64,000 nt of DNA from Kaiparowitsia implicata GSE-PSE-MK54-09C (lineage in GTDB: Bacteria > Cyanobacteriota > Cyanobacteriia > Elainellales > Elainellaceae). Below, one piece after another: positions 589-13,995 of this stretch. The DNA is taken from contig JAHHHI010000055.1 in assembly GCA_019359435.1 (NCBI GenBank), positions 1-64,000 on the forward strand. Direction: 5' to 3'. The translations under genes and the position numbers were made by a program. Position 1 is the first letter of the stretch; the number at the start of each line of letters is the position of its first letter. Under the pieces are notes generated by a model that searched no databases, was not told the DNA's origin, and saw only the letters and a list, made by a program, of their open reading frames with translations.

Positions 589-1407
589 ATGAATAGCGTC
601 AGAGTTTTAAATGTGGAGATTGACAATCTATCAACGCGGGAACTGCTGCAGACCTTAAGGCAGGGCGTTGTAGTTACACCCAATGTGGATCATCTAGTCA
701 AACTTCAGCATGATGAAGCATTTATGGAGGTCTATCGCTCAGCAGACTTTAGAGTGTGCGATAGCAAGGTTCTACTATGGGCAGCGAAGTTCCTAGGCCA
801 ACCGCTCAAAGAAAAAATATCTGGTTCCGACTTATTTCCTGCTTTCTATGAGTTTCATCGTCACAACGAGGATATTCGTATATTCTTGCTGGGAGCCCGA
901 GAAGGCGTTGCTGCAGATGCCATGAGACGAATCAATCAAAAAATAGGCCGAGATATCATAGTTGATTGCTACTCTCCATCATTTGGGTTTGAAAAAAACG
1001 AAGATGAGTGCGCTGAAATTCTTCAAAAAATTCGAGATTCAGGTGCAACAGTATTAGCGGTAGGTGTAGGCGCACCAAAGCAAGAAAAATTTATTCATCA
1101 GTACAAAGATCAATTGCCGACAATCAAAATATTTTTGGCAATTGGGGCAACCCTCGATTTCGAGGCAGGAAATGTTAAGCGATCGCCCAAATGGGTCAGT
1201 GAAGTCGGCCTAGAGTGGATGTATAGACTACTCTCCGAACCCAAGCGTTTATGGCGTCGATATCTTCTTGATGATCCCCAATTCTTTTGGTTTTTAGTGA
1301 TGCAAAAACTAAGCCTTTACCAAGATCCGTATAAGCACACCGATTCATCTATGGGTCTGCCAGATAACCCTTATCTCAAAGAGCCAGGTAGTGTTGTACT
1401 AGAGTGA
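589..1407 (+). CDS. WecG/TagA/CpsF family glycosyltransferase
   Basis: A 272-residue protein of the GT26 family, which transfers N-acetylmannosamine-type or related sugars onto lipid-linked intermediates in surface polysaccharide synthesis. Family features visible: TPNVDHLVKL near residues 30-39, the conserved Asp in VCDSK (about 58), the FLLGAREGVA nucleotide-sugar stretch (99-108) and the hallmark VGVGAPKQE (158-166), followed by AIGATLDFEAG and GLEWMYRL. There is no signal peptide; the family is cytoplasmic and membrane-associated. Length is slightly above the usual 240-250 because of a C-terminal tail. The ATG is preceded by GGATTTGGAG. It lies about 340 bp upstream of the lasso genes on the same strand; a role in that cluster is not shown, and exopolysaccharide synthesis is the default reading. 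Confidence 0.9.
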   Translation: MNSVRVLNVEIDNLSTRELLQTLRQGVVVTPNVDHLVKLQHDEAFMEVYRSADFRVCDSKVLLWAAKFLGQPLKEKISGSDLFPAFYEFHRHNEDIRIFLLGAREGVAADAMRRINQKIGRDIIVDCYSPSFGFEKNEDECAEILQKIRDSGATVLAVGVGAPKQEKFIHQYKDQLPTIKIFLAIGATLDFEAGNVKRSPKWVSEVGLEWMYRLLSEPKRLWRRYLLDDPQFFWFLVMQKLSLYQDPYKHTDSSMGLPDNPYLKEPGSVVLE

Positions 1408-1746: not shown

Positions 1747-2037
1747 GTGTTGAATCAAGATTCGATCGTTAAAGCTTCTTCAACCCAGGTTGCATCGGAC
1801 TTAGGTGGAGAGACAATAATTCTAAATCTAAAGTCTGGTACATATTATGGTCTGAATAAGGTGGGAACAAGAGTCTGGACGTTGCTGCAAAGTGGCTTAA
1901 CCATAAAGCAGATTTATTCCACCCTTCTAGAAGAGTACGAGGTTGAATCTGAGCAATGCATGGTGGATTTGCTGCAGATTCTGAATAACTTGCAAAATGC
2001 AGGGTTGATTGAGGTCGGCCATGCGGCGGCTGCGTAA
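1747..2037 (+). CDS. Lasso peptide biosynthesis B1 protein (PqqD-like RRE)
   Basis: A 96-residue PqqD-family protein. The pattern of an N-terminal strand (VASDLGGETIILNLKSGTYYGLN), then KVGTRVWTLLQSGLTIKQIYSTLLEEYEV and a final helix is the RiPP recognition element fold, which binds the leader peptide of the precursor and presents it to the processing enzymes. In lasso clusters this domain is the separate B1 protein, as here. The start is GTG with a TTG next to it. It overlaps the following B2 gene in another frame, the usual sign of translational coupling. It is the first gene of the B1-B2-C-A run. Confidence 0.88.
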   Translation: MLNQDSIVKASSTQVASDLGGETIILNLKSGTYYGLNKVGTRVWTLLQSGLTIKQIYSTLLEEYEVESEQCMVDLLQILNNLQNAGLIEVGHAAAA

Positions 2038-2452
2038 GTTCTTGCACCTTTCATCGAGCGATCGCACGCTACTAATCGAAGCTTTAATCGTTATTCTTGT
2101 ACTGAAGTTAGGGCTGTGGTTGCTTCCATTTCGGGTGCTTCACACCTACTCCCTCAAGCTATCTCAAGTGTTGATGCAGCCCCACGGTCTCGAGGGTCAT
2201 CGAATCCAATCTATTGTGCAATCAATAGAAATTGTGACCTGGCATATCCCTGGGAAAGCCAAATGTTTGGCTCGCGCTATGGCTGTGCAATTTATGCTTC
2301 GGCGTCGAAATCATCAAACATCTTTGCACATTGGGGTAACGAAGCGAACGGATTCAGTTTTAGAAGCGCATGCATGGCTTGAGTATGACGGAGTTATTGT
2401 AATTGGCGGCGTCCCAGATTTTAATCGATTCAAGCCTTTGGTAATTCTGTAG
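2021..2452 (+). CDS. Lasso peptide B2 protein (transglutaminase-like leader peptidase)
   Basis: A 143-residue protein of the transglutaminase-like cysteine protease family (PF13471) that removes the leader peptide from lasso precursors. Visible: a hydrophobic N-terminal segment (ALIVILVLKLGLWLLPF), the catalytic Cys in GKAKCLARA (about residue 82) and the catalytic His in LEAHAWLEYDG (about residue 117); the acidic third member could be the Asp in EYDG or the one in GVPDF. I use the ATG at 2021. A TTG twelve bases upstream in the same frame (2009) would add four residues. With the ATG start it overlaps B1 by 17 bp. It ends 10 bp before the cyclase gene. Confidence 0.9.
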   Translation: MRRLRKFLHLSSSDRTLLIEALIVILVLKLGLWLLPFRVLHTYSLKLSQVLMQPHGLEGHRIQSIVQSIEIVTWHIPGKAKCLARAMAVQFMLRRRNHQTSLHIGVTKRTDSVLEAHAWLEYDGVIVIGGVPDFNRFKPLVIL

Positions 2453-2462
2453 GAAGCAACTG

Positions 2463-4556
2463 GTGAGTGGAATTGTAGGCCTTTACAACTTAAATGGGCA
2501 AAGCATTGATTCAGAGCATCTAAACGATGCGATGAAATCAATCTCTCATAGAGGGCCTGATGCATCGAACGTGTGGTCTCAAGACACAGTAGGAATGGCG
2601 CACTGCTTGCTGTGGACAACGCCAGAATCGCTATTAGAGCACTTACCTATGCTAAGTGGCGATCGCTCTCTTGTCCTGACTGCCGATGCCCGGATTGATA
2701 ACCGAGAAGAATTAGTTGCCAAGTTAGATATCGCAAACAAGCCTTTGGAAAAAATCACAGACAGTGAATTGATTCTGATAGCGTACAGCCATTGGGGTGA
2801 GCACTGTGTTGAGCACTTAATAGGCGATTTTGCCTTCGCTATTTGGGACCAACCCCAACAAAAGCTCTTCTGTGCCAGAGATCATCTTGGGGTTAAGCCG
2901 CTCTACTATTTCTATGACCCGGAACATACATTTTGTTTTGCCTCAGAAATGAAGGCATTGCTCACCTTCCCTTGGATTTCGCAAAACATAAATGAACGAC
3001 GCATTGCAGATTACTTGAGGAATTCAGTGAATGATGTTACTGATACGGTCTACAGCAATATTTCTCGGTTGCCACCAGCGCATACTCTAGTTGTCAGTGC
3101 TGCCTATGGGGCCAGACTCGAGCAATACTGGATGCTAGATCCCTCCCACAGCTTAGAGATGGATTCTGACGAAGCCTATGCAAACGCCTTTTTCGATCTT
3201 TTTGCTGAAGCAGTCCATTGTCGCTTAAGAAGTGCATTCCCCATTGGCGCACACTTAAGCGGTGGGCTGGATTCGTCATCTGTCACCTGTGTGGCGCGAC
3301 ACTTGCTTGCAGAGTCTGGGGCTGATCCACTCCATACCTTCTCCAACGTCTTCGACATTGTTGAAGAATGCGACGAGCGACCTTACATCAATACAGTGTT
3401 GCACCAGGGTGGGTTAATTGCTCACTATACCTATCCCGATCGAGTTGGCCCTCTTGCGCGGTGGCAGGATATGCTGCAACCACGAGAGGAACCCTGTCTT
3501 AATGGGGGAAACGGTTATCTGGTTTGGATACTGAATCAAGCGGCTCAAACTGCTGGAGTACGAGTCTCGTTGGACGGGTTTGATGGCGACACTACAGTTA
3601 GCCATGGGTTTAACCGATTTGCAGAGTTGTTGCAGCAAGAGCGTTGGCAGGAGTTTGCAGCGGAAGCTCGATGCCTAGCAGAACGGTTAGAGGGCTCCCC
3701 GAATCCGCTGGTAGTTCAGTATTTCTTGCCGTATCTTACAGAGCTGGCACGGAGTTGGCGCTGGATTGCGTTTCATCAGGCGATCGCCCAGATGAGCCAG
3801 CATTTTCGCCTACCATGCAAGCGACTATGGCTTCATGGCATCAAAGCCATACTGCCTTCTAGGATGCTGCGTCTGGGGCAGGATTTGCGCAGGCGATACG
3901 CTGAGGATCAAGAGGCTTCATCCTTAATTCATCCTCTATTTGACCAGCGCACCCAAACAGATACTGCGGTTCAATCGGGTAGGCGCGGTCTACCCTCGCA
4001 AACTTCCCAACGGGATGAAGCACTGATGACAGTTCGAGAGGCCCAATGGGCGATGCTGACATCCCCTGGGTTAACGCTTCTGCTAGAACTGCAAGATATT
4101 GCAGCAGCAGCGCACTCCATAGAAGCGCGGCATCCATTTCTGGATAAGCGCTTAGTCGAGTTTTGTTTAGCTCTACCCTCCCATCAAAAGCTACATCAGG
4201 GATGGTCACGCATTATATTGCGTCGAGCGATGAAAGGTTTTCTTCCCCATGAGATCCAGTGGCGAGCAGGCAAGATGGATATGAAGCCCAGCTTTATTAA
4301 AGGTCTGCGTCAGCAAAACCGTGCCCTACTGGACAATGTCATGACCCATGACATGGAGAAGATTCAAGATTACGTAGGCCTAGCTAGTCTGCGTAAGTCC
4401 TATGACCGTCTCACATCTGGTGCTGCAGCATCAGATCGTGACTTGATGGCGGTTTGGACAGGAACAGCGTTGGCCCTATGGCAACGCCAAATTGAGTCGG
4501 CATCTCTTGCCAACTCAACTGAATCGAATAGTTCAGTGCAATTGTCACTGAACTAG
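2463..4556 (+). CDS. Lasso cyclase (asparagine synthetase B-like)
   Basis: A 697-residue protein with an N-terminal class II glutamine amidotransferase-like domain (SGIVGLYNLNG, SHRGPDASNVW, DFAFAIWD, GVKPLYY) and a C-terminal ATP-pyrophosphatase synthetase domain with the PP-loop SGGLDSSS at residues 266-273 and DGFDGD further on. True asparagine synthetases begin Met-Cys, with the Cys as glutaminase nucleophile; here the GTG start is followed by Ser, so ammonia release from glutamine is not expected. That is typical of lasso cyclases, which adenylate an Asp or Glu side chain and close the macrolactam with the core N-terminus. Position between B2 and the precursor gene supports this call over asparagine biosynthesis. 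Confidence 0.9.
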   Translation: MSGIVGLYNLNGQSIDSEHLNDAMKSISHRGPDASNVWSQDTVGMAHCLLWTTPESLLEHLPMLSGDRSLVLTADARIDNREELVAKLDIANKPLEKITDSELILIAYSHWGEHCVEHLIGDFAFAIWDQPQQKLFCARDHLGVKPLYYFYDPEHTFCFASEMKALLTFPWISQNINERRIADYLRNSVNDVTDTVYSNISRLPPAHTLVVSAAYGARLEQYWMLDPSHSLEMDSDEAYANAFFDLFAEAVHCRLRSAFPIGAHLSGGLDSSSVTCVARHLLAESGADPLHTFSNVFDIVEECDERPYINTVLHQGGLIAHYTYPDRVGPLARWQDMLQPREEPCLNGGNGYLVWILNQAAQTAGVRVSLDGFDGDTTVSHGFNRFAELLQQERWQEFAAEARCLAERLEGSPNPLVVQYFLPYLTELARSWRWIAFHQAIAQMSQHFRLPCKRLWLHGIKAILPSRMLRLGQDLRRRYAEDQEASSLIHPLFDQRTQTDTAVQSGRRGLPSQTSQRDEALMTVREAQWAMLTSPGLTLLLELQDIAAAAHSIEARHPFLDKRLVEFCLALPSHQKLHQGWSRIILRRAMKGFLPHEIQWRAGKMDMKPSFIKGLRQQNRALLDNVMTHDMEKIQDYVGLASLRKSYDRLTSGAAASDRDLMAVWTGTALALWQRQIESASLANSTESNSSVQLSLN

Positions 4557-4592
4557 GCTTTTAAACCAGCATACAACGGAGATCTAACCATC

Positions 4593-4766
4593 ATGAAAAA
4601 GAGCTATATCGCTCCTCAACTGACCAACCACGGTAGTGTCGAGTCCCTGACTCAAGCTGTAGGCGACGTGAGCTTCTCTGATACCGTATTTCTCAGCGCG
4701 AGTGTGAATCCCGTGGCAATCGGTGACTCGGCTGGCTCTCGCGATGCTATCGTTGTGCCTCTCTAG
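4593..4766 (+). CDS. Lasso peptide precursor (A gene)
   Basis: A 57-residue peptide gene 36 bp after the cyclase stop, too short for most gene callers. The leader carries the canonical lasso motif: Tyr5, Pro8, Leu10, Gly14, Leu19 and Thr20 in the spacing Y-x2-P-x-L-x3-G-x4-L-T. In known lasso precursors a Thr sits at the second-last leader position. Applying that rule puts the cut after Gln21, and the core then starts AVGDVSFSD, so Ala1 and Asp9 would form a 9-residue ring. Starting at the Gly instead would give a 7-residue ring with the same Asp. The predicted core is 36 residues and ends IVVPL, longer than most characterised lasso peptides. GGAG at about 4578-4581 is the likely ribosome-binding site. 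Leader recognition is strong; the exact core and ring are inferred. Confidence 0.85.
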   Translation: MKKSYIAPQLTNHGSVESLTQAVGDVSFSDTVFLSASVNPVAIGDSAGSRDAIVVPL

Positions 4767-4848
4767 GATGAATTTTGACAGCGATAACCAGCGTTATTCC
4801 TGTTAAATTTAGCCTTGCGATCGTACAAGTAATATAATCGCATAAGCA

Positions 4849-4895
4849 ATGTAGCAGTTGAGGGTGAATTTGCGCGCTCAACTGCTACATTTTTG
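4849..4895 (+). terminator. Rho-independent-type terminator after lasso precursor
   Basis: Perfect 14-bp stem ATGTAGCAGTTGAG (4849-4862) / CTCAACTGCTACAT (4877-4890) with a 14-base loop, followed by TTTTTG. It lies about 80 bp after the precursor stop and should end the B1-B2-C-A transcript, or thin it out before the kinase, exporter and nucleotidyltransferase genes. A stem at the 3' end could also stabilise the precursor message. Confidence 0.85.
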
Positions 4896-5137
4896 TATTG
4901 AAATTCAGCTTCTACTTTAGAAATTAGAGGTTCGAGATAGTCTTGATAGTCTTCTGGATTGTTTTTTGGAACCATGTTTTAGGAAGCTATTTGCCGTAGC
5001 AGCTAGAGACCAATAATAGTTCTGCGCCAATGGCATGCTATCTGATATAAATCGCCGTAGTTTGGGCATTGTGGGGTGGGCTCAAAGATGTGTAGCAAGC
5101 TCATCGCGTTTGTTGCAGTGGTTTGAGAAACTCCAAT
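4896..5137. other. Intergenic between lasso terminator and kinase gene
   Basis: No gene supported. A 70-codon reverse frame (4763-4975) crosses the terminator and the precursor stop and shows no family features. The stretch may hold a second promoter for the downstream tailoring and export genes. Confidence 0.4.
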
Positions 5138-6079
5138 ATGTCAATTCCTGATTTTATGTATACCTATACTGCTTACAACCTGATAATTCAATCTGAAATT
5201 GAGCTACCGGAGCTAATTCCATCTGATGGGTTGGGAGATATAACGATTCGCATGGGCAATTTAATGCGGCCCAATCATCGCAGAAGCGATGGCGGAAACC
5301 ATTTTTTGGGAAAGGTTGACGGTGCCGGAGTATTTCGGGTGTTGGATGGGTGCGATATCACCATTCAGCCGGAGCCTGGGGTCGATGAGGCAGTACTCCG
5401 TCCATTGATTGAGGGGCCAATATTATCGACGCTGCTGCGGCAGCGGGGTTTACTGGTACTCCATGCCGGAAGTTTTATTGCTCAGCAGGGAGCGATCGCC
5501 TTTATGGCAGACTCCGGATGGGGTAAATCCACATTAATTGAGACGTTTCACGGACGGGGTTATGAGATCCTGACTGACGATGTGATGGCGCTCAATCTGG
5601 AAACAGGCCAGCCGTTGGTGCATCCTGGCATTCCGCAAGTAAAGCTTTGTTTTGATGCAGCAGAATATACGGGGCATGCGCAGAATAGTTTGCCGCTCAT
5701 TCATTCTCACGCGCTAAAGCTATCGCATCGGCTGACCGATGGCTTTTCATCTCGTGCGGTTCCACTACGGCGACTGTATGTGTTGGATTATGGCGATCGC
5801 AACGAAATTATTCCCCTGACCCAGCAAGAAGCCTTTCTAGCATTGGTGCACCACTCTCGCTCCATGATATTGCTGACCGCGCCAGAGTTTCAGGCGGCGC
5901 ATCTACATCAGTGTTCGCGTCTGCTACAGTCGGTGCCGGTCGGTCGGTTGGTGCGGCGGCGATCGCTCGCCAACATGCCTCAGGTTGTCGCCATGATTGA
6001 AGCAGACATTGAGCAGGCCCCCTACGAAACCATTCCACCCCATCCTGTGCCATCAGATAATGCGTTGGCTAATGCCTAA
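5138..6079 (+). CDS. HPr kinase-like protein, probable lasso peptide kinase
   Basis: A 313-residue protein resembling HprK-type serine kinases. Visible: LLVLHAGSF (about 105-113, with the His typical of the family), the Walker A loop ADSGWGKSTL (124-133) and LTDDV (145-149), which corresponds to the acidic metal-binding stretch. HPr kinase homologues in lasso clusters (for example the paeninodin type) phosphorylate the C-terminal Ser of the peptide. The precursor here ends in Leu, so the substrate residue, or even the role, may differ. The frame extends to a TTG at 5123; I prefer the ATG at 5138. It lies downstream of the terminator and may have its own promoter. Family call firm, substrate unknown. 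Confidence 0.82.
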   Translation: MSIPDFMYTYTAYNLIIQSEIELPELIPSDGLGDITIRMGNLMRPNHRRSDGGNHFLGKVDGAGVFRVLDGCDITIQPEPGVDEAVLRPLIEGPILSTLLRQRGLLVLHAGSFIAQQGAIAFMADSGWGKSTLIETFHGRGYEILTDDVMALNLETGQPLVHPGIPQVKLCFDAAEYTGHAQNSLPLIHSHALKLSHRLTDGFSSRAVPLRRLYVLDYGDRNEIIPLTQQEAFLALVHHSRSMILLTAPEFQAAHLHQCSRLLQSVPVGRLVRRRSLANMPQVVAMIEADIEQAPYETIPPHPVPSDNALANA

Positions 6080-6458
6080 GCGTTCAACTGTATGGCGAGA
6101 TAGAGGTTGCGCTCGGTATCCCGCTTTATCCATATCTTGAACGTAGCGAGATCCACGCGGTGGAATCTTTTGCGTTGTTTAGACCCATCTAAATACATCT
6201 ATATGAGAGTCTGTCAGCAGCTTCGGGCACTCTAGCGGTGGACAAGGCGCAACTAATAGATTTGCATTTGCGGGTCTGACCCACTACAACTCTACGTGTC
6301 GGCAAATGCCGTGTGGTTACGGCTAAATCTAATCGTCTTGTAATTGCATAGTTGCTAAAGGCAGCTATTTTCTAGAACCTATGCCCAGAGAAGGTTCTAC
6401 AGGAAGAACAATCATCTGCACGTCAAGCGCCATGTTACTAAACTGAACGAGGAACGAG
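6080..6458. other. Intergenic before exporter gene
   Basis: About 380 bp with no coding frame of note and no strong hairpin. The exporter ribosome-binding site GAGGAACGAG lies directly before 6459. Confidence 0.4.
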
Positions 6459-8312
6459 ATGATAAGCCGCAGACTGCAACAGGTGTTCCAAACTGGACTG
6501 GCTCAGGCTGCTTATTTGCCTCAAACCGCGCAACTAATTTGGCAGGCCTCTCGGGGATGGATGCTGGCTTGGGTAGGGCTGCTAGTTTTGCAGGGTCTCC
6601 TTCCAGGTCTTACGGTGTATCTAACTGGAATGCTAGTAGATGGGCTCGTTCAAATTACGGGTGCTGGGTTCAGTCGTGCCAGTATTCAGCCTATTTTGGT
6701 GCCCGGTAGCTTGATGGTAGCAGCGCTAGTTCTGACAGAGCTGTTGAAGAGCGCTGGTGAATGGGTACGAACCGTGCAGGCAGAACTGGTGCAAGACCGA
6801 GTCAGTTCGCTGGTGCATCAGCAGTCGCTAGCGGTAGATTTGGGGTTCTACGAATCATCTGAATTCTATGACCACATGGATCGGGCAAGAACTGATGCGG
6901 CGGGGCGATCGCTTGCCCTGCTCGAAAGCATTGGGGGCTTGCTACAAAATGGCATCACGTTACTAACGCTAAGCGCAATTTTGCTGCCCTATGGGCTCTG
7001 GTTACCGCTGGTACTGCTGGTTAGTACGATTCCTGCATTTTTTGCAATGCTGCATATTAACCGTCAGCAGCATCAGTGGTGGCATCGTACAACGATCGAT
7101 CGACGGTGGCTGCAATATTATGAGTTGCTGTTGACCCAGGCTATGGCTGCGCCTGAGATGCGGTTGTTTGGCCTAGGGAGCTATTTTCAGACTGTTTACC
7201 AAACCTTGCGGAAACGGCTGCGTGGCGAGCAGTTTGCGCTAGTAAAACGGCAGGGAATAAGCCGGTTGGCTGCAACGGCGATCGCCCTATTAATCTCTGG
7301 TGGTGCAATGCTTTGGATGGGCCGGCAGGTGTTGCTGGGGGCGCTGACCTTAGGAGACTTAGCCCTGTTTTACCAGGCCTTTAACCGAGGTCAGGGAATC
7401 ATGAAAGCGCTGCTAGGGAATTTGGGGCAGGCCTATAGCAATAGCTTGTTTATCCGCAGTTTATTTGAGTTTTTGGCGCTGCAACCACAGGTTGTGAGTC
7501 CAGCTAAGCCATGCTCAGTCCCAACCCGGTTCTGCCATGGCATTGAGTTTCGAGATGTGACGTTTCGCTATCCAGGGAGCGATCGCCCTGTCCTAGAACA
7601 TTTCAACCTATCTATTCCGGCTGGCAAAACCGTCGCGATTGTGGGTGACAATGGCGCAGGCAAAAGTACCCTAATCAAGTTACTCTGTCGTTTCTATGAT
7701 CCCCATGCGGGCGCAGTTGAAATAGATGGCGTAGATCTACGGGCATTTGCGGTAGAAGACCTACGACGGCAGATTACCGTTTTGTTTCAAAACCCAGTCC
7801 CCTACTTTGTCACTGCAGTACAGAATATTGCACTAGGCGACATCAGCACCACCCCGTCAGAAGCAGACATTGAAGCCGCAGCCCAATGTGCAGGCATTCA
7901 CGACACAATTTTGGATCTGCCTAACGGGTATCAGACTCGGTTGGGTAAGTGGTTCCCCAATGGAACGGATTTGAGTGGCGGACAGTGGCAACGGTTAGCG
8001 TTAGCGCGCTCCTTCTTACGTCAGGCTCAGTTAATTATTCTGGATGAGCCCACCAGCGCCATGGATCCCTGGGCAGAACATGACTGGATTGAGCGGTTTC
8101 GGGCCTTGGCGAGCGATCGCACGGCTGTCGTCGTTACCCATCGATTCACCCTGGCTATGCGAGCTGACCTAATTCATGTCATGCGAGCCGGGCGCATAGT
8201 CGAATCGGGTACCCACAGCGAGCTCCTGGCTCTGAACGGTCTCTATGCTGAGTCATGGCATGCTCAGATGAGTCATGAAACTGCTCCATTGCCTGTCGTC
8301 AGCCTGGCATAG
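6459..8312 (+). CDS. ABC exporter, permease fused to ATPase (lasso peptide export)
   Basis: A 617-residue half-transporter with an N-terminal membrane domain of about six helices (residues about 30-350) followed by a nucleotide-binding domain. Walker A GDNGAGKST is at 396-404, signature LSGGQWQR at 505-512, Walker B LIILDEP at 525-531 and the switch His in VVVTHR after it. This is the architecture of McjD-type exporters, which pump mature lasso peptides out and give self-immunity. There is no C39 peptidase domain, consistent with a separate leader peptidase (B2). Position between the kinase and nucleotidyltransferase genes supports the role in the cluster; the transported substrate is inferred. 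Confidence 0.9.
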   Translation: MISRRLQQVFQTGLAQAAYLPQTAQLIWQASRGWMLAWVGLLVLQGLLPGLTVYLTGMLVDGLVQITGAGFSRASIQPILVPGSLMVAALVLTELLKSAGEWVRTVQAELVQDRVSSLVHQQSLAVDLGFYESSEFYDHMDRARTDAAGRSLALLESIGGLLQNGITLLTLSAILLPYGLWLPLVLLVSTIPAFFAMLHINRQQHQWWHRTTIDRRWLQYYELLLTQAMAAPEMRLFGLGSYFQTVYQTLRKRLRGEQFALVKRQGISRLAATAIALLISGGAMLWMGRQVLLGALTLGDLALFYQAFNRGQGIMKALLGNLGQAYSNSLFIRSLFEFLALQPQVVSPAKPCSVPTRFCHGIEFRDVTFRYPGSDRPVLEHFNLSIPAGKTVAIVGDNGAGKSTLIKLLCRFYDPHAGAVEIDGVDLRAFAVEDLRRQITVLFQNPVPYFVTAVQNIALGDISTTPSEADIEAAAQCAGIHDTILDLPNGYQTRLGKWFPNGTDLSGGQWQRLALARSFLRQAQLIILDEPTSAMDPWAEHDWIERFRALASDRTAVVVTHRFTLAMRADLIHVMRAGRIVESGTHSELLALNGLYAESWHAQMSHETAPLPVVSLA

Positions 8313-8432
8313 CCCCAACGATAGGTCTTGTCTTGCAATAGATTCCGCTAGTTATCTGCTGAGCAACTCAGCTCTTTGCCTGCGCCTGCTTTTACTCGTT
8401 GATATAACCCTTGTCCTGGAGCGCCACTGACG

Positions 8433-9494
8433 ATGTCTACGCCACTTGTTCGTACCCTTATTAGAACCTGCCTAGCTGACCCAGGAAGCACGTGGACACA
8501 GATCGCAGCAAAGCATGTGCAGCAGGCGAGCCATGCAGAGTGGCAGCAAACCTTGCTTACTTTACTCGTTCATCGTCTGGTTCCCCTAACCACCTATGCG
8601 CTCGAGCAGCATAGCCTGCTGGATGCCGTTCCTGCCGAGCATTTAACCGTGATGCGACTTGTAGCGCAGAAAGCTAAGACGACAACAATGCTGAATCTGC
8701 TGACCCTAGACGGCATCCTTACCACTATGCAGCAGGCGGGTTTACATCCCGTTTTGTGGAAAGGGGTTGTGCTAGCAGACAGTTTTTATCCGCATCCCCA
8801 AACTCGAGCGATGGACGATATTGACTTTTCACTGCCACCAGAAGAAATGTCTAAAGCCCATGACGTCTTTCAGTCGCTGGGGTTTATTCGGCAAGAGCAG
8901 ATGGCAACTGATGACGCAGTGTATTACCTGAATCGACTGGGTGTCCTGTGCGATGTACATCACCGAGTTCGCTTATTTGAAGCATTAGACACGACTATAG
9001 ATTCATCCCATCCATTGACGATCGATTTCAACCCAACTCATCTCAAAACCAGACCTATGAATGTACTAGAACCCAACGCTATGTTGGTTCATTTAGTAGT
9101 GCACATGGATGGACATCGCGACGAAACGGGGCCGCTACTGATCTGGATGCTGGACGTGGCCTTTGTCCTGCGGCGATGGGGCGGTCTGATTGATCTAGAG
9201 CGAATCCAAACTCTCATGCCTGCACCAGAGTATCTGATCTCGCTTCTACGGCTAGTGCGGTTCTTGCATGAGGAATTGCATGAGCCATTACCAGAATCAC
9301 TGGCGATCGCCGCTCAAAACTATCCTCCCTACACCCTGGCAGAAATTTTGCGCCAGCGCCGACTGGCGATTTGGGGCTTGCCAACCTGGCGTGGCTGGGT
9401 GCGGCTACTCGGGTGCAGGCTGGGCATTACAGCACGAAAAAATCGGATTTATCCTCACATCCATGATTTGCTGCCCTGGGCTACTGCATCATGA
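8433..9494 (+). CDS. Nucleotidyltransferase-like protein of lasso cluster
   Basis: A 353-residue protein of the uncharacterised nucleotidyltransferase family PF14907 (NTP_transf_5). The diagnostic stretch is VLWKGVVLADSFYPHP then TRAMDDIDF, with Asp128, Asp129 and Asp131 as candidate metal ligands, as in the polymerase-beta-type fold. Members recur in lasso clusters with an HPr-kinase homologue; in the pseudomycoidin system the nucleotidyltransferase is thought to act on the phosphorylated peptide. Here it may add a group to a phosphate placed by the 5138 kinase, but that is inference. It is 120 bp after the exporter, same strand. Its stop overlaps a following ATG by 4 bp. Confidence 0.8.
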   Translation: MSTPLVRTLIRTCLADPGSTWTQIAAKHVQQASHAEWQQTLLTLLVHRLVPLTTYALEQHSLLDAVPAEHLTVMRLVAQKAKTTTMLNLLTLDGILTTMQQAGLHPVLWKGVVLADSFYPHPQTRAMDDIDFSLPPEEMSKAHDVFQSLGFIRQEQMATDDAVYYLNRLGVLCDVHHRVRLFEALDTTIDSSHPLTIDFNPTHLKTRPMNVLEPNAMLVHLVVHMDGHRDETGPLLIWMLDVAFVLRRWGGLIDLERIQTLMPAPEYLISLLRLVRFLHEELHEPLPESLAIAAQNYPPYTLAEILRQRRLAIWGLPTWRGWVRLLGCRLGITARKNRIYPHIHDLLPWATAS

Positions 9495-11585: not shown

Positions 11586-13616
11586 TCATCGCACATAGGC
11601 GATCGCCCCTCGACTTTCCTGGGCTAGGCGATTGACGGCACACAGCGCATAGGTGCCAGCAGACACTTCCAGACTGGTGGCGGTAGCGGGGAGCAACTGC
11701 TGCAGTTGCCATTGGTCGTTGACGACACGATAAAGGCTATAGGCGTGGGGCCGAGGGGCGGGTGCCGTCCACATCAGACGCTGCCCGCCGCGCAGGCTGG
11801 TGACGGGGGTTGCAGAGGCGGTGCTGAGCCAGGGCATGGTGGGGGGCAAGGCTGGCTGGGCGTAGAGCTGAGTTGAGAGGCGATCGCCAAAACCCGCCCG
11901 GTTGGTGGCAAGCGACTTCATGCTGTAGAAGATATTGCCCAAGGCCAGACGAGAGGAGCGATCGCGCGTCTCATTCACCTGCCGCTCTAGTTCGGTAGTG
12001 TCGGTAGTGCCCTCCTTGAGCAACGCCAGGTTGTTGCCAGGGTAGATGTGGCGATGGCGCGAGTTTTGCGCTAACCACCAGTCCAACAGGGCCATGTAGC
12101 TTTGGCCTGGGGAGTCAATGCGCCAGTACAGCTGTGGAGCCAGATAATCGACCCAGCCTGCCTGCAGCCACTTCAGCGCGTCGGCATAGAGCTGGTTATA
12201 GGCGTCTAATCCCTGAATTTGCGGGGGCTGCCCCGGTCGATAAATGCCAAAGGGGCTGATGCCAAACTTGACCCAGGGCTTGGCGCTGCGAATGCCCTCC
12301 GCCAGCCGTTGCACGAGCCGATTTACATTGTCGCGTCGCCAGTCGGCGCGGGCAAGCTTGCCGCCCTGGCTTTGATACGCTTGGTAGGTGGCATGATCGG
12401 GAAACTCTTGTCCCGCAATGGGATAGGGATAAAAATAGTCATCCAAATGAATGCCATCCAGGTCATAGCGACGCACAACGTCCAAAATCACGCGGTAGGT
12501 GCGCTCTTGCACGGCGGCAGAGCCTGGGTCCATCCACATCTGATTGCCCCAGGGATAGACCACCGACGGATCGGTGATGGCGGCGTGGGGCAACACATGC
12601 ACCGTTTGGGCGCTGGTGCGAGCGCGGTAGGGGTTAAACCAGGCGTGCAGTTCTAGGTTGCGGCGGTGGCATTGGGCGATCGCCCACTCCAATAGGTCAT
12701 AGGTCGGATTGGGGGCTTTACCCTGAGTGCCCGTCAGCCAAAAGCTCCAGGGTTCTAACGACGAGGCATAGAGCGCATCGCCTTCAGGGCGCACTTGCAA
12801 AAACACGGCATTGAACTTCATGGCTTGCAGCTTGTCTAAGAGCGCCGATAGCTCGCTCTGCTGCTGCGCCACTGTCAGCGTCCGCTGCGAGGGAAAATCA
12901 ATATTCCATACCGTGGCAATCCACGCACCCCGAAATTCGCGGCGATGGCTCACCTCCACCAGTCGCACCCAAGAGACGATGCCCGGCGCATCTAGATCGG
13001 GAGCGCTGCCCTGGTGGACGAGGCATTGGTAGATAAAGGCGGCAATCTCGGCGCGGGTGGCGGGCTGGTTGGGGTGCAGGCGGGTGCGATCGGGATAGTT
13101 GACAATGATGCGGGCGTCAGTGCAAGCGGCGATCGCCCCCATCGCCCACGTCGCAATCTCTCGACTATCGTGATATAGCTCCGCGAGTGGAATTGCTTCG
13201 GCGGTCGTGAGGCCAAGCCCGCTGGCCAATGACACCAGCGCCTGCACGCGGGGAATCGACTCTAGCGGGCGAAACAAATTCCCAGGATAGCCCGACAGAA
13301 AGGCCGTTTCGTAAGCCCACTGCACCGCCCCCGCCGCCCAATATCCCGGCGCAATATCCCCAAAGGGCATGTAAGGGCGCACCCCCAGTTTAGGAAATGC
13401 CGCTCGCAACAGGGCCGCAAACTCTGCACGACTGGTCGGGGCCTCGGGACGAAAGGTGCCATCGTCAAAGCCTCGCACCACACCGCGTTGGGTGAGCCCT
13501 TCGATAAAGGGTCTGGCCCAGTGGGTTTGAATGTCGGGAAATGTCTGGAGAAAAGCCTCAGAACTAGCGCTGGACTCGGCTGGCGCTGGAGAACTGGAAG
13601 GATTGATGTGGCTCAT
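11586..13616 (-). CDS. SLH-domain protein with glycoside hydrolase-like (GHL10/DUF187) domain
   Basis: 676 residues from an ATG with AGGAG 8 bases upstream; a GTG eight codons earlier is less likely. Three S-layer-homology repeats fill about residues 25-205 (FPDIQTHWARPFIEGLTQRG, FGDIAPGYWAAGAVQWAYE, and a third ending in TRAEIAAFIYQCL). Then comes a family-10-like glycosyl hydrolase domain beginning EFRGAWIATVWNIDFPS, with AWFNPYRA and DGIHLDDYFYPYP carrying the likely acidic active-site residues. A small beta domain closes the protein. Such proteins are thought to act on cell-wall or sheath polysaccharide. No signal peptide is apparent before the first SLH repeat, which is odd for a surface protein. 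Confidence 0.82.
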   Translation of the reverse strand: MSHINPSSSPAPAESSASSEAFLQTFPDIQTHWARPFIEGLTQRGVVRGFDDGTFRPEAPTSRAEFAALLRAAFPKLGVRPYMPFGDIAPGYWAAGAVQWAYETAFLSGYPGNLFRPLESIPRVQALVSLASGLGLTTAEAIPLAELYHDSREIATWAMGAIAACTDARIIVNYPDRTRLHPNQPATRAEIAAFIYQCLVHQGSAPDLDAPGIVSWVRLVEVSHRREFRGAWIATVWNIDFPSQRTLTVAQQQSELSALLDKLQAMKFNAVFLQVRPEGDALYASSLEPWSFWLTGTQGKAPNPTYDLLEWAIAQCHRRNLELHAWFNPYRARTSAQTVHVLPHAAITDPSVVYPWGNQMWMDPGSAAVQERTYRVILDVVRRYDLDGIHLDDYFYPYPIAGQEFPDHATYQAYQSQGGKLARADWRRDNVNRLVQRLAEGIRSAKPWVKFGISPFGIYRPGQPPQIQGLDAYNQLYADALKWLQAGWVDYLAPQLYWRIDSPGQSYMALLDWWLAQNSRHRHIYPGNNLALLKEGTTDTTELERQVNETRDRSSRLALGNIFYSMKSLATNRAGFGDRLSTQLYAQPALPPTMPWLSTASATPVTSLRGGQRLMWTAPAPRPHAYSLYRVVNDQWQLQQLLPATATSLEVSAGTYALCAVNRLAQESRGAIAYVR

Positions 13617-13995
13617 GGGGCAGCTCCTGCAATACGGCACCTATGGCTATGGTTATAGCCTGGCTCGCGAGAGATGCAGCATGGGGGGAACAGCCATCAT
13701 GCCATGACCAATGTCCTAAGCATGCCGTCTTAGCGCTACATCCGCAGGTAGATCTGCGCGCTAGGGGTGCATCCAACCTTCAGCATTTTTTCGTAAACGG
13801 GCTGGAAGGCAGGCGCATCGTTTGTTTTCGCAAATGGTCTCGGCTCGAGGTCTGGCTTTGCGTTGCCTGCGTTTAGCAAAAGCACGACAGCGTGTTTGAG
13901 CAGATTGGGGGACTTGTGTGCAGCAAAGCTAGCGCCCCCAAGTCAAAGCCTAGCCATTCCATGTTCTTCGATGTTTCTTTACTGAGAGTGCCGAT
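13617..13995. other. Intergenic between divergent surface-protein genes
   Basis: About 380 bp between the starts of the reverse SLH gene and the forward RTX gene; presumably contains both promoters. No gene or strong repeat seen. Confidence 0.4.

Follow-up and report, generated by a model that had tools for sequence, protein, structure and literature searches.

Which residue would a lasso-peptide kinase modify when its precursor lacks the terminal serine expected of its substrates? The question is raised by a 64,000-nucleotide stretch of contig JAHHHI010000055.1 from Kaiparowitsia implicata GSE-PSE-MK54-09C (hereafter the window), in which seven genes, B1-B2-C-A-K-D-N, lie on the + strand at positions 1747-9494, all with intact frames. 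They encode a leader-binding protein (B1), a leader peptidase (B2), a cyclase (C), the precursor (A), a kinase (K), an exporter (D), and a nucleotidyltransferase-fold protein (N). Lasso kinases are reported to phosphorylate the C-terminal Ser of the precursor, often several times, with a His-Lys-Asp-Asp catalytic set (reviews PMC9266682, PMC8498205), which is essential in paeninodin-type kinases (PMC9266682). The window departs from this textbook picture, K being intact while the precursor has no terminal Ser and a conserved internal Ser instead.

The 57-residue precursor A (4593..4766, + strand), present as a single copy in the genome, comprises the leader MKKSYIAPQLTNHGSVESLTQ, which follows the pattern YxxPxL...G...T, and the 36-residue core AVGDVSFSDTVFLSASVNPVAIGDSAGSRDAIVVPL, with Thr20 as the Thr at -2. 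Of 152 related precursors, 118 have Asp or Glu as the ninth core residue, and a nine-residue ring closed by an isopeptide bond between Ala1 and Asp9 (4680..4682, + strand) is therefore the natural reading. The core ends in ..SAGSRDAIVVPL and its last residue is Leu (..AIVVPL), so that the C-terminal Ser of the paeninodin/pseudomycoidin type is absent. The tail carries instead a G-S-R-D motif (4734..4745, + strand), whose Ser28, in core numbering (4737-4739), is the proposed phospho-acceptor. The pattern G-S-x-D/N occurs in 92 of the 152 precursors, compared with a mean of 21 and a maximum of 34 in 200 shuffles, and the Ser position of the motif holds Ser 98 times, followed by Gly 31 times, against a Ser background of 11%. 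In the majority form, to which the window belongs, the core is long, lacks a C-terminal Ser and bears G-S-x-D/N some 5-40 residues from its end; about twenty short precursors form a minority that ends in Ser, like paeninodin. A plasmid search with the window precursor gave no match.

K (about 5138..6079, + strand) is assigned to the HprK/phosphoenolpyruvate carboxykinase (PEPCK) fold from its structural model and its catalytic residues. Profile matches were weak (TIGR04352, 27 bits), a Pfam scan of K gave no match, and sequence searches of the PDB with K and with N returned nothing useful. The AlphaFold2 model, built from 51 sequences, has a predicted local distance difference test score (pLDDT) of 93.6 and matches PEPCK over 263 residues with a VIA Z of 18. 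HPr kinase belongs to the PEP carboxykinase superfamily; no HPrK structure occurs among the 50 fold matches listed for K, all of which are PEPCK, and this says nothing against kinship. The P-loop is clear, and the catalytic set comprises His109 (5462-5464), Lys130, and Asp147 and Asp148 (5576-5581), residues kept in 118-121 of 121 K homologues. With all four present, a degenerate kinase is ruled out, and since the set is conserved K is probably active, despite the missing reported acceptor. We consider it very probable that K acts on the precursor, whereas the chance that Ser28 is the phosphorylated site appears to be even or slightly better. LppK offers a direct precedent for action away from the C-terminus: it modifies Ser3 alone in a 45-residue linear core (PMC13381572).

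The two tail forms are mirrored in the kinases. Kinase trees place the Ser-ending and G-S-x-D classes in separate parts, with one change of tail class in the IQ-TREE mixture-model tree (48 rows) and two in FastTree, one of which is due to locus L175, a mislabelled row that was entered as Ser-ending yet carries the motif form too. Fixed differences between the classes include Asn14/Gly, Arg101/His, Tyr142/His, Thr146/Ala, His239/Asn, and Arg241/Tyr, among others.

The prevalence of this arrangement was assessed in 114 stretches around cyclase matches in two families and around precursor matches, together with one further locus, L002; loci were picked by cyclase or by precursor, none by K. Because scanning genome contigs with the window cyclase yielded one relative only, relatives were sought family by family in whole genomes. 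Of the 36 genomes in the window's own family, 8 had a cyclase above the cut-off, and exactly these 8 had a K homologue; in the family of genome G091, of the same class, 83 of 218 genomes carried the cyclase. Among the fetched cyanobacterial loci, the genes as a rule follow the order B1-B2-C-A-K-D, often with N last. K lies within 4 kb of 111 of the 113 cyclase genes that are followed by 3.5 kb or more of sequence, and is therefore a standard part rather than an add-on; D is nearby in 92 and N in 61 of 101 cyclase loci with at least 7 kb downstream. In 32 of the 113 loci, the cyclase is accompanied by two to five precursors. Judged by gene content and order, the window cluster is thus an ordinary member of a widespread group of cyanobacterial lasso clusters. 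The preliminary description of the window had pointed to the precursor following the cyclase and to two add-on enzymes. The first is true here and, as the comparison with other lasso loci indicates, is the usual cyanobacterial order rather than a peculiarity; the second fits N, which is optional, and not K. In one distant member of the phylum (L086, 11146-15991, - strand), we observe five tandem open reading frames of about 320 amino acids, each with a B1 (PqqD) match, beside C, K, N, and D.

We propose the following pathway. B1 would bind the YxxPxL leader, B2 would cleave after Gln21, and C would join Ala1 to Asp9 by an isopeptide bond, giving a long-tailed lasso with a 36-residue core, which D would export. 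K would phosphorylate the precursor before folding, most likely at Ser28 of the internal G-S-x-D, this residue being the most likely acceptor because there is no C-terminal Ser; N would then probably add a sugar or a nucleotide to the Ser28 phosphate. The calculated monoisotopic masses are 3513.80 for the unmodified 36-residue lasso, 3593.77 with one phosphate, and 3755.82 with phosphate and hexose, against 2650.28 and 2730.24 (one phosphate) for a product trimmed at Ser28. What we observe are the genes, the active-site residues, the folds of K and N, the conserved order, and the split of the kinase clades by precursor tail. Ring closure, cleavage, threading, and export are assigned by analogy with known lasso systems, and Ser28 phosphorylation and the role of N are predictions. 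On balance we favor this pathway as a whole. More tentatively, with odds a little short of even, we suggest that most cyanobacterial lasso clusters make long-tailed lassos whose obligatory kinase targets the internal G-S-x-D Ser rather than a C-terminal one, so that lasso kinases would fall into two substrate classes, paralleled by the fixed kinase changes.

The last step would depend on N (8433..9494, + strand), an NTP_transf_5 nucleotidyltransferase-fold protein (PF14907, 121 bits against 31). Its Lys110-Gly111, Arg125, Asp129, and Asp131 are invariant in 44 relatives, and the catalytic pair Asp129/Asp131 is intact at 8817-8825. In a Foldseek search, the N model best matched ANT(2'')-Ia, in addition to other nucleotidyltransferases. 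In the pseudomycoidin pathway, PsmN adds one or two hexoses to the phosphate (PMC9266682, PMC8498205); whether N likewise modifies the phosphate seems to us an evenly balanced matter.

Several points weigh against the proposed pathway. Published lasso kinases reportedly require the C-terminal Ser that the window precursor lacks. Kinase clade and tail class changed jointly only once, so that their link has no independent replication and the tail as substrate is supported, not proven. By strict pattern, about a quarter of the precursors, many of them near variants, show neither tail form. To our knowledge, known lasso peptides are shorter than the 36-residue core, and trimming of the tail is therefore possible.

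Such trimming would remove RDAIVVPL after Ser28 and leave a 28-residue core in which Ser28 is truly C-terminal, with K acting as in paeninodin. This would bring the window into line with the published C-terminal Ser rule, and tails ending in ..LTFS, ..LTFSGTF, and ..LTFSETPMRG, found in one kinase clade and even in one cluster, are in its favor. We nevertheless consider it unlikely, since the cluster has no open reading frame for an extra peptidase, the kinase residues differ between the two tail classes, and trimming would have to come first, given that the kinases described in the literature modify the precursor before it folds. The tails also span 5 to 40 residues and are constrained about as strongly as the ring. 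From 20 independent pairs of related long precursors, the ratio of the proportions of nonsynonymous and synonymous differences (pN/pS) was 0.25 for the leader, 0.48 for the ring, 0.54 for the linker, 0.46 for the tail, and 0.26 for the motif, the last value being biased and not independent because the set was picked by motif. The tail value, near those of ring and linker, speaks against a constraint-free tail, a reading we reject, and points to limits on drift in the stretch that follows the Ser; this argues weakly against the tail being simply discarded. The LTFS-type precursors are paralogues, located at 7832-8613 in L084 and at 12423-12653 in L152, and have the same Ser either at the C-terminus or shortly before it.

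It is equally improbable, in our estimation, that K targets another Ser or Thr of the precursor, or another protein in a regulatory role, and that G-S-x-D serves the cyclase, the exporter, or a receptor. The core does hold several other Ser and Thr residues, the motif could function in recognition, and it is connected with K only through the clades, by one change. Against this, Ser far outnumbers any other residue at the motif position, in the proportions given above, and it sits in the tail, where known lasso kinases act.

A silent or decayed cluster that makes no product is still less probable, and by a wide margin. The window starts at a contig end, its position 1 coinciding with base 1 of assembly contig C55, and any control further upstream lies outside the sequence, and a scan for sigma-70-type sites upstream on the + strand found no promoter-like site; the seven intact frames, the retained active-site residues, and the conserved precursor speak against decay. 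Finally, a linear product like the linear polyphosphorylated peptides (LPP) is ruled out by the presence of the cyclase.

The family assignments of the other genes are as follows. B1 (1747..2037, + strand) is a leader-binding RiPP recognition element of the PqqD type (PF05402, 66 bits against 23.4) that scores 79.4 bits on NF033536 lasso_PqqD_Bac, 0.6 bit short of the cut-off of 80. The leader peptidase B2 (about 2021..2452, + strand; PF13471; NF033537, 100.8 bits against 33) likely starts at ATG 2021, with TTG 2009 also open, and has intact Cys86 (2264-2266) and His121 (2369-2371), each retained by 95% or more of 98 relatives. C (2463..4556, + strand) is a lasso macrolactam cyclase of the asparagine-synthetase type (NF033535 lass_lactam_cya, 880.6 bits against 525), in which the SGGLDSS loop and the family-invariant residues are kept and the glutaminase Cys is replaced by Ser, as throughout the family. 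The precursor scores 43.8 bits on NF033528 lasso_cyano (against 33) and 22.1 on NF033521 (against 19). D (6459..8312, + strand) is an MsbA-like ATP-binding cassette exporter with permease and ATPase parts (PF00005, 106 bits; PF00664, weak; MsbA/HepA-like profiles) and no peptidase domain. C, B2, and A thus pass curated lasso models, those for C and A being the cyanobacterial ones, and with scores far above the curated cut-offs chance open reading frames are ruled out. The seven genes called in the preliminary description are all present on one strand, as borne out by profile matches and the K model; its reading of a complete cyanobacterial lasso-peptide cluster, which it had made dependent on the precursor motif and on catalytic residues of B2 and C, stands, all of these agreeing with 98-111 relatives. 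On this sequence evidence, the locus is almost certainly a complete lasso-peptide cluster.

Between the precursor and kinase genes, 3' of the former, lies a perfect 15-bp hairpin followed by T-rich sequence (4848..4891, + strand; folding z-score -6.7), which a terminator scan missed because of its loop limit of 8 and which was found by direct search and folding. Such T-tailed hairpins occur in 34 of 99 A-K gaps compared with 6 of 111 random control stretches, an excess that may partly reflect intergenic sequence in general, as the control was drawn from all parts of the loci. The hairpin is likely an attenuator or 3' stabilizer, with the likely role of making the precursor transcript more abundant than those of the genes that follow.

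Upstream of the cluster lies a WecG/TagA/CpsF-type glycosyltransferase gene (589..1407, + strand; PF03808, 197 bits), a possible accessory, of which a close homologue is found beside a related lasso cluster (L068, 16847-17662). Polysaccharide genes are common in the fetched flanks, as around LPP clusters, with group-1 glycosyltransferases in 27 loci and Wzz/tyrosine-kinase-like genes in 18. Downstream, a gene at 11586-13640 (- strand) encodes three S-layer homology repeats and a GHL10 glycoside-hydrolase-like domain, with no sign of belonging to the cluster.

Among known systems, the pseudomycoidin cluster of Bacillus pseudomycoides (PMC9266682) shares with the window the lasso genes, an HprK-like kinase (PsmK), and a nucleotidyltransferase (PsmN), N being likened to PsmN through its PF14907 match. 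The pairing of kinase and nucleotidyltransferase is therefore already known, and in both cases a phosphate bearing a further group is expected; the published substrate in the pseudomycoidin pathway is the core's C-terminal Ser, whereas the window has the internal G-S-x-D in its long core. The decorated product foreseen in the preliminary description remains plausible, as pseudomycoidin bears phosphate and hexose, although that description overlooked the absence of the published substrate feature. The paeninodin, ThcoK, and SyanK kinases (PMC9266682, PMC8498205) have the His-Lys-Asp-Asp set and a gene inside the lasso cluster in common with K, and differ in the C-terminal Ser of their precursors. 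The LPP system with LppK and LppN (PMC13381572) has an HprK-like kinase, an NTP (nucleoside triphosphate) transferase, a recognition element, an MsbA-like exporter, a YxxP leader, a long core, and a phosphorylated Ser that is not C-terminal; it lacks a cyclase and uses a signal-peptidase-like (SpI-like) protease, whereas the window has C and B2. For the Nostocales lasso genes of Cyanocohniella sp. LLY, a 36-residue cleaved product has also been proposed, and the part of that account considered here mentions no kinase, nucleotidyltransferase, or tail motif (PMC9332814).

Three loci of the G091 family contain cyclase-free clusters (L083, 2540-10748; L087, 2279-11932; L088, 1360-11094, - strand) with B1, a group-1 glycosyltransferase, one or two precursors, K, a group-2 glycosyltransferase, B2, D, and N, the glycosyltransferase labels being read off the sequence rather than profile-based. 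Their precursors lack the ring acid (..LTQQVGGSGGFGTT..), and precursors of this kind are present in about 13-15 of 218 genomes. By their gene content, these clusters look like a cyanobacterial counterpart of LPP, with B2 replacing the signal-peptidase-like protease.

The kinase is near universal in cyanobacterial lasso clusters, whereas elsewhere it is described as a tailoring extra (PMC9266682, PMC8498205). If the internal Ser is indeed its substrate, the C-terminal Ser rule would cover only a minority of cyanobacterial clusters, and the kinase would belong to the basic lasso pathway in Cyanobacteriota. The two kinase clades, with their two tails and few fixed residues, would then offer a natural comparison for testing the substrate code. 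Should this prove wrong, the cluster would still serve as a good, ordinary representative of a group of cyanobacterial peptides that is widespread and has been little studied.

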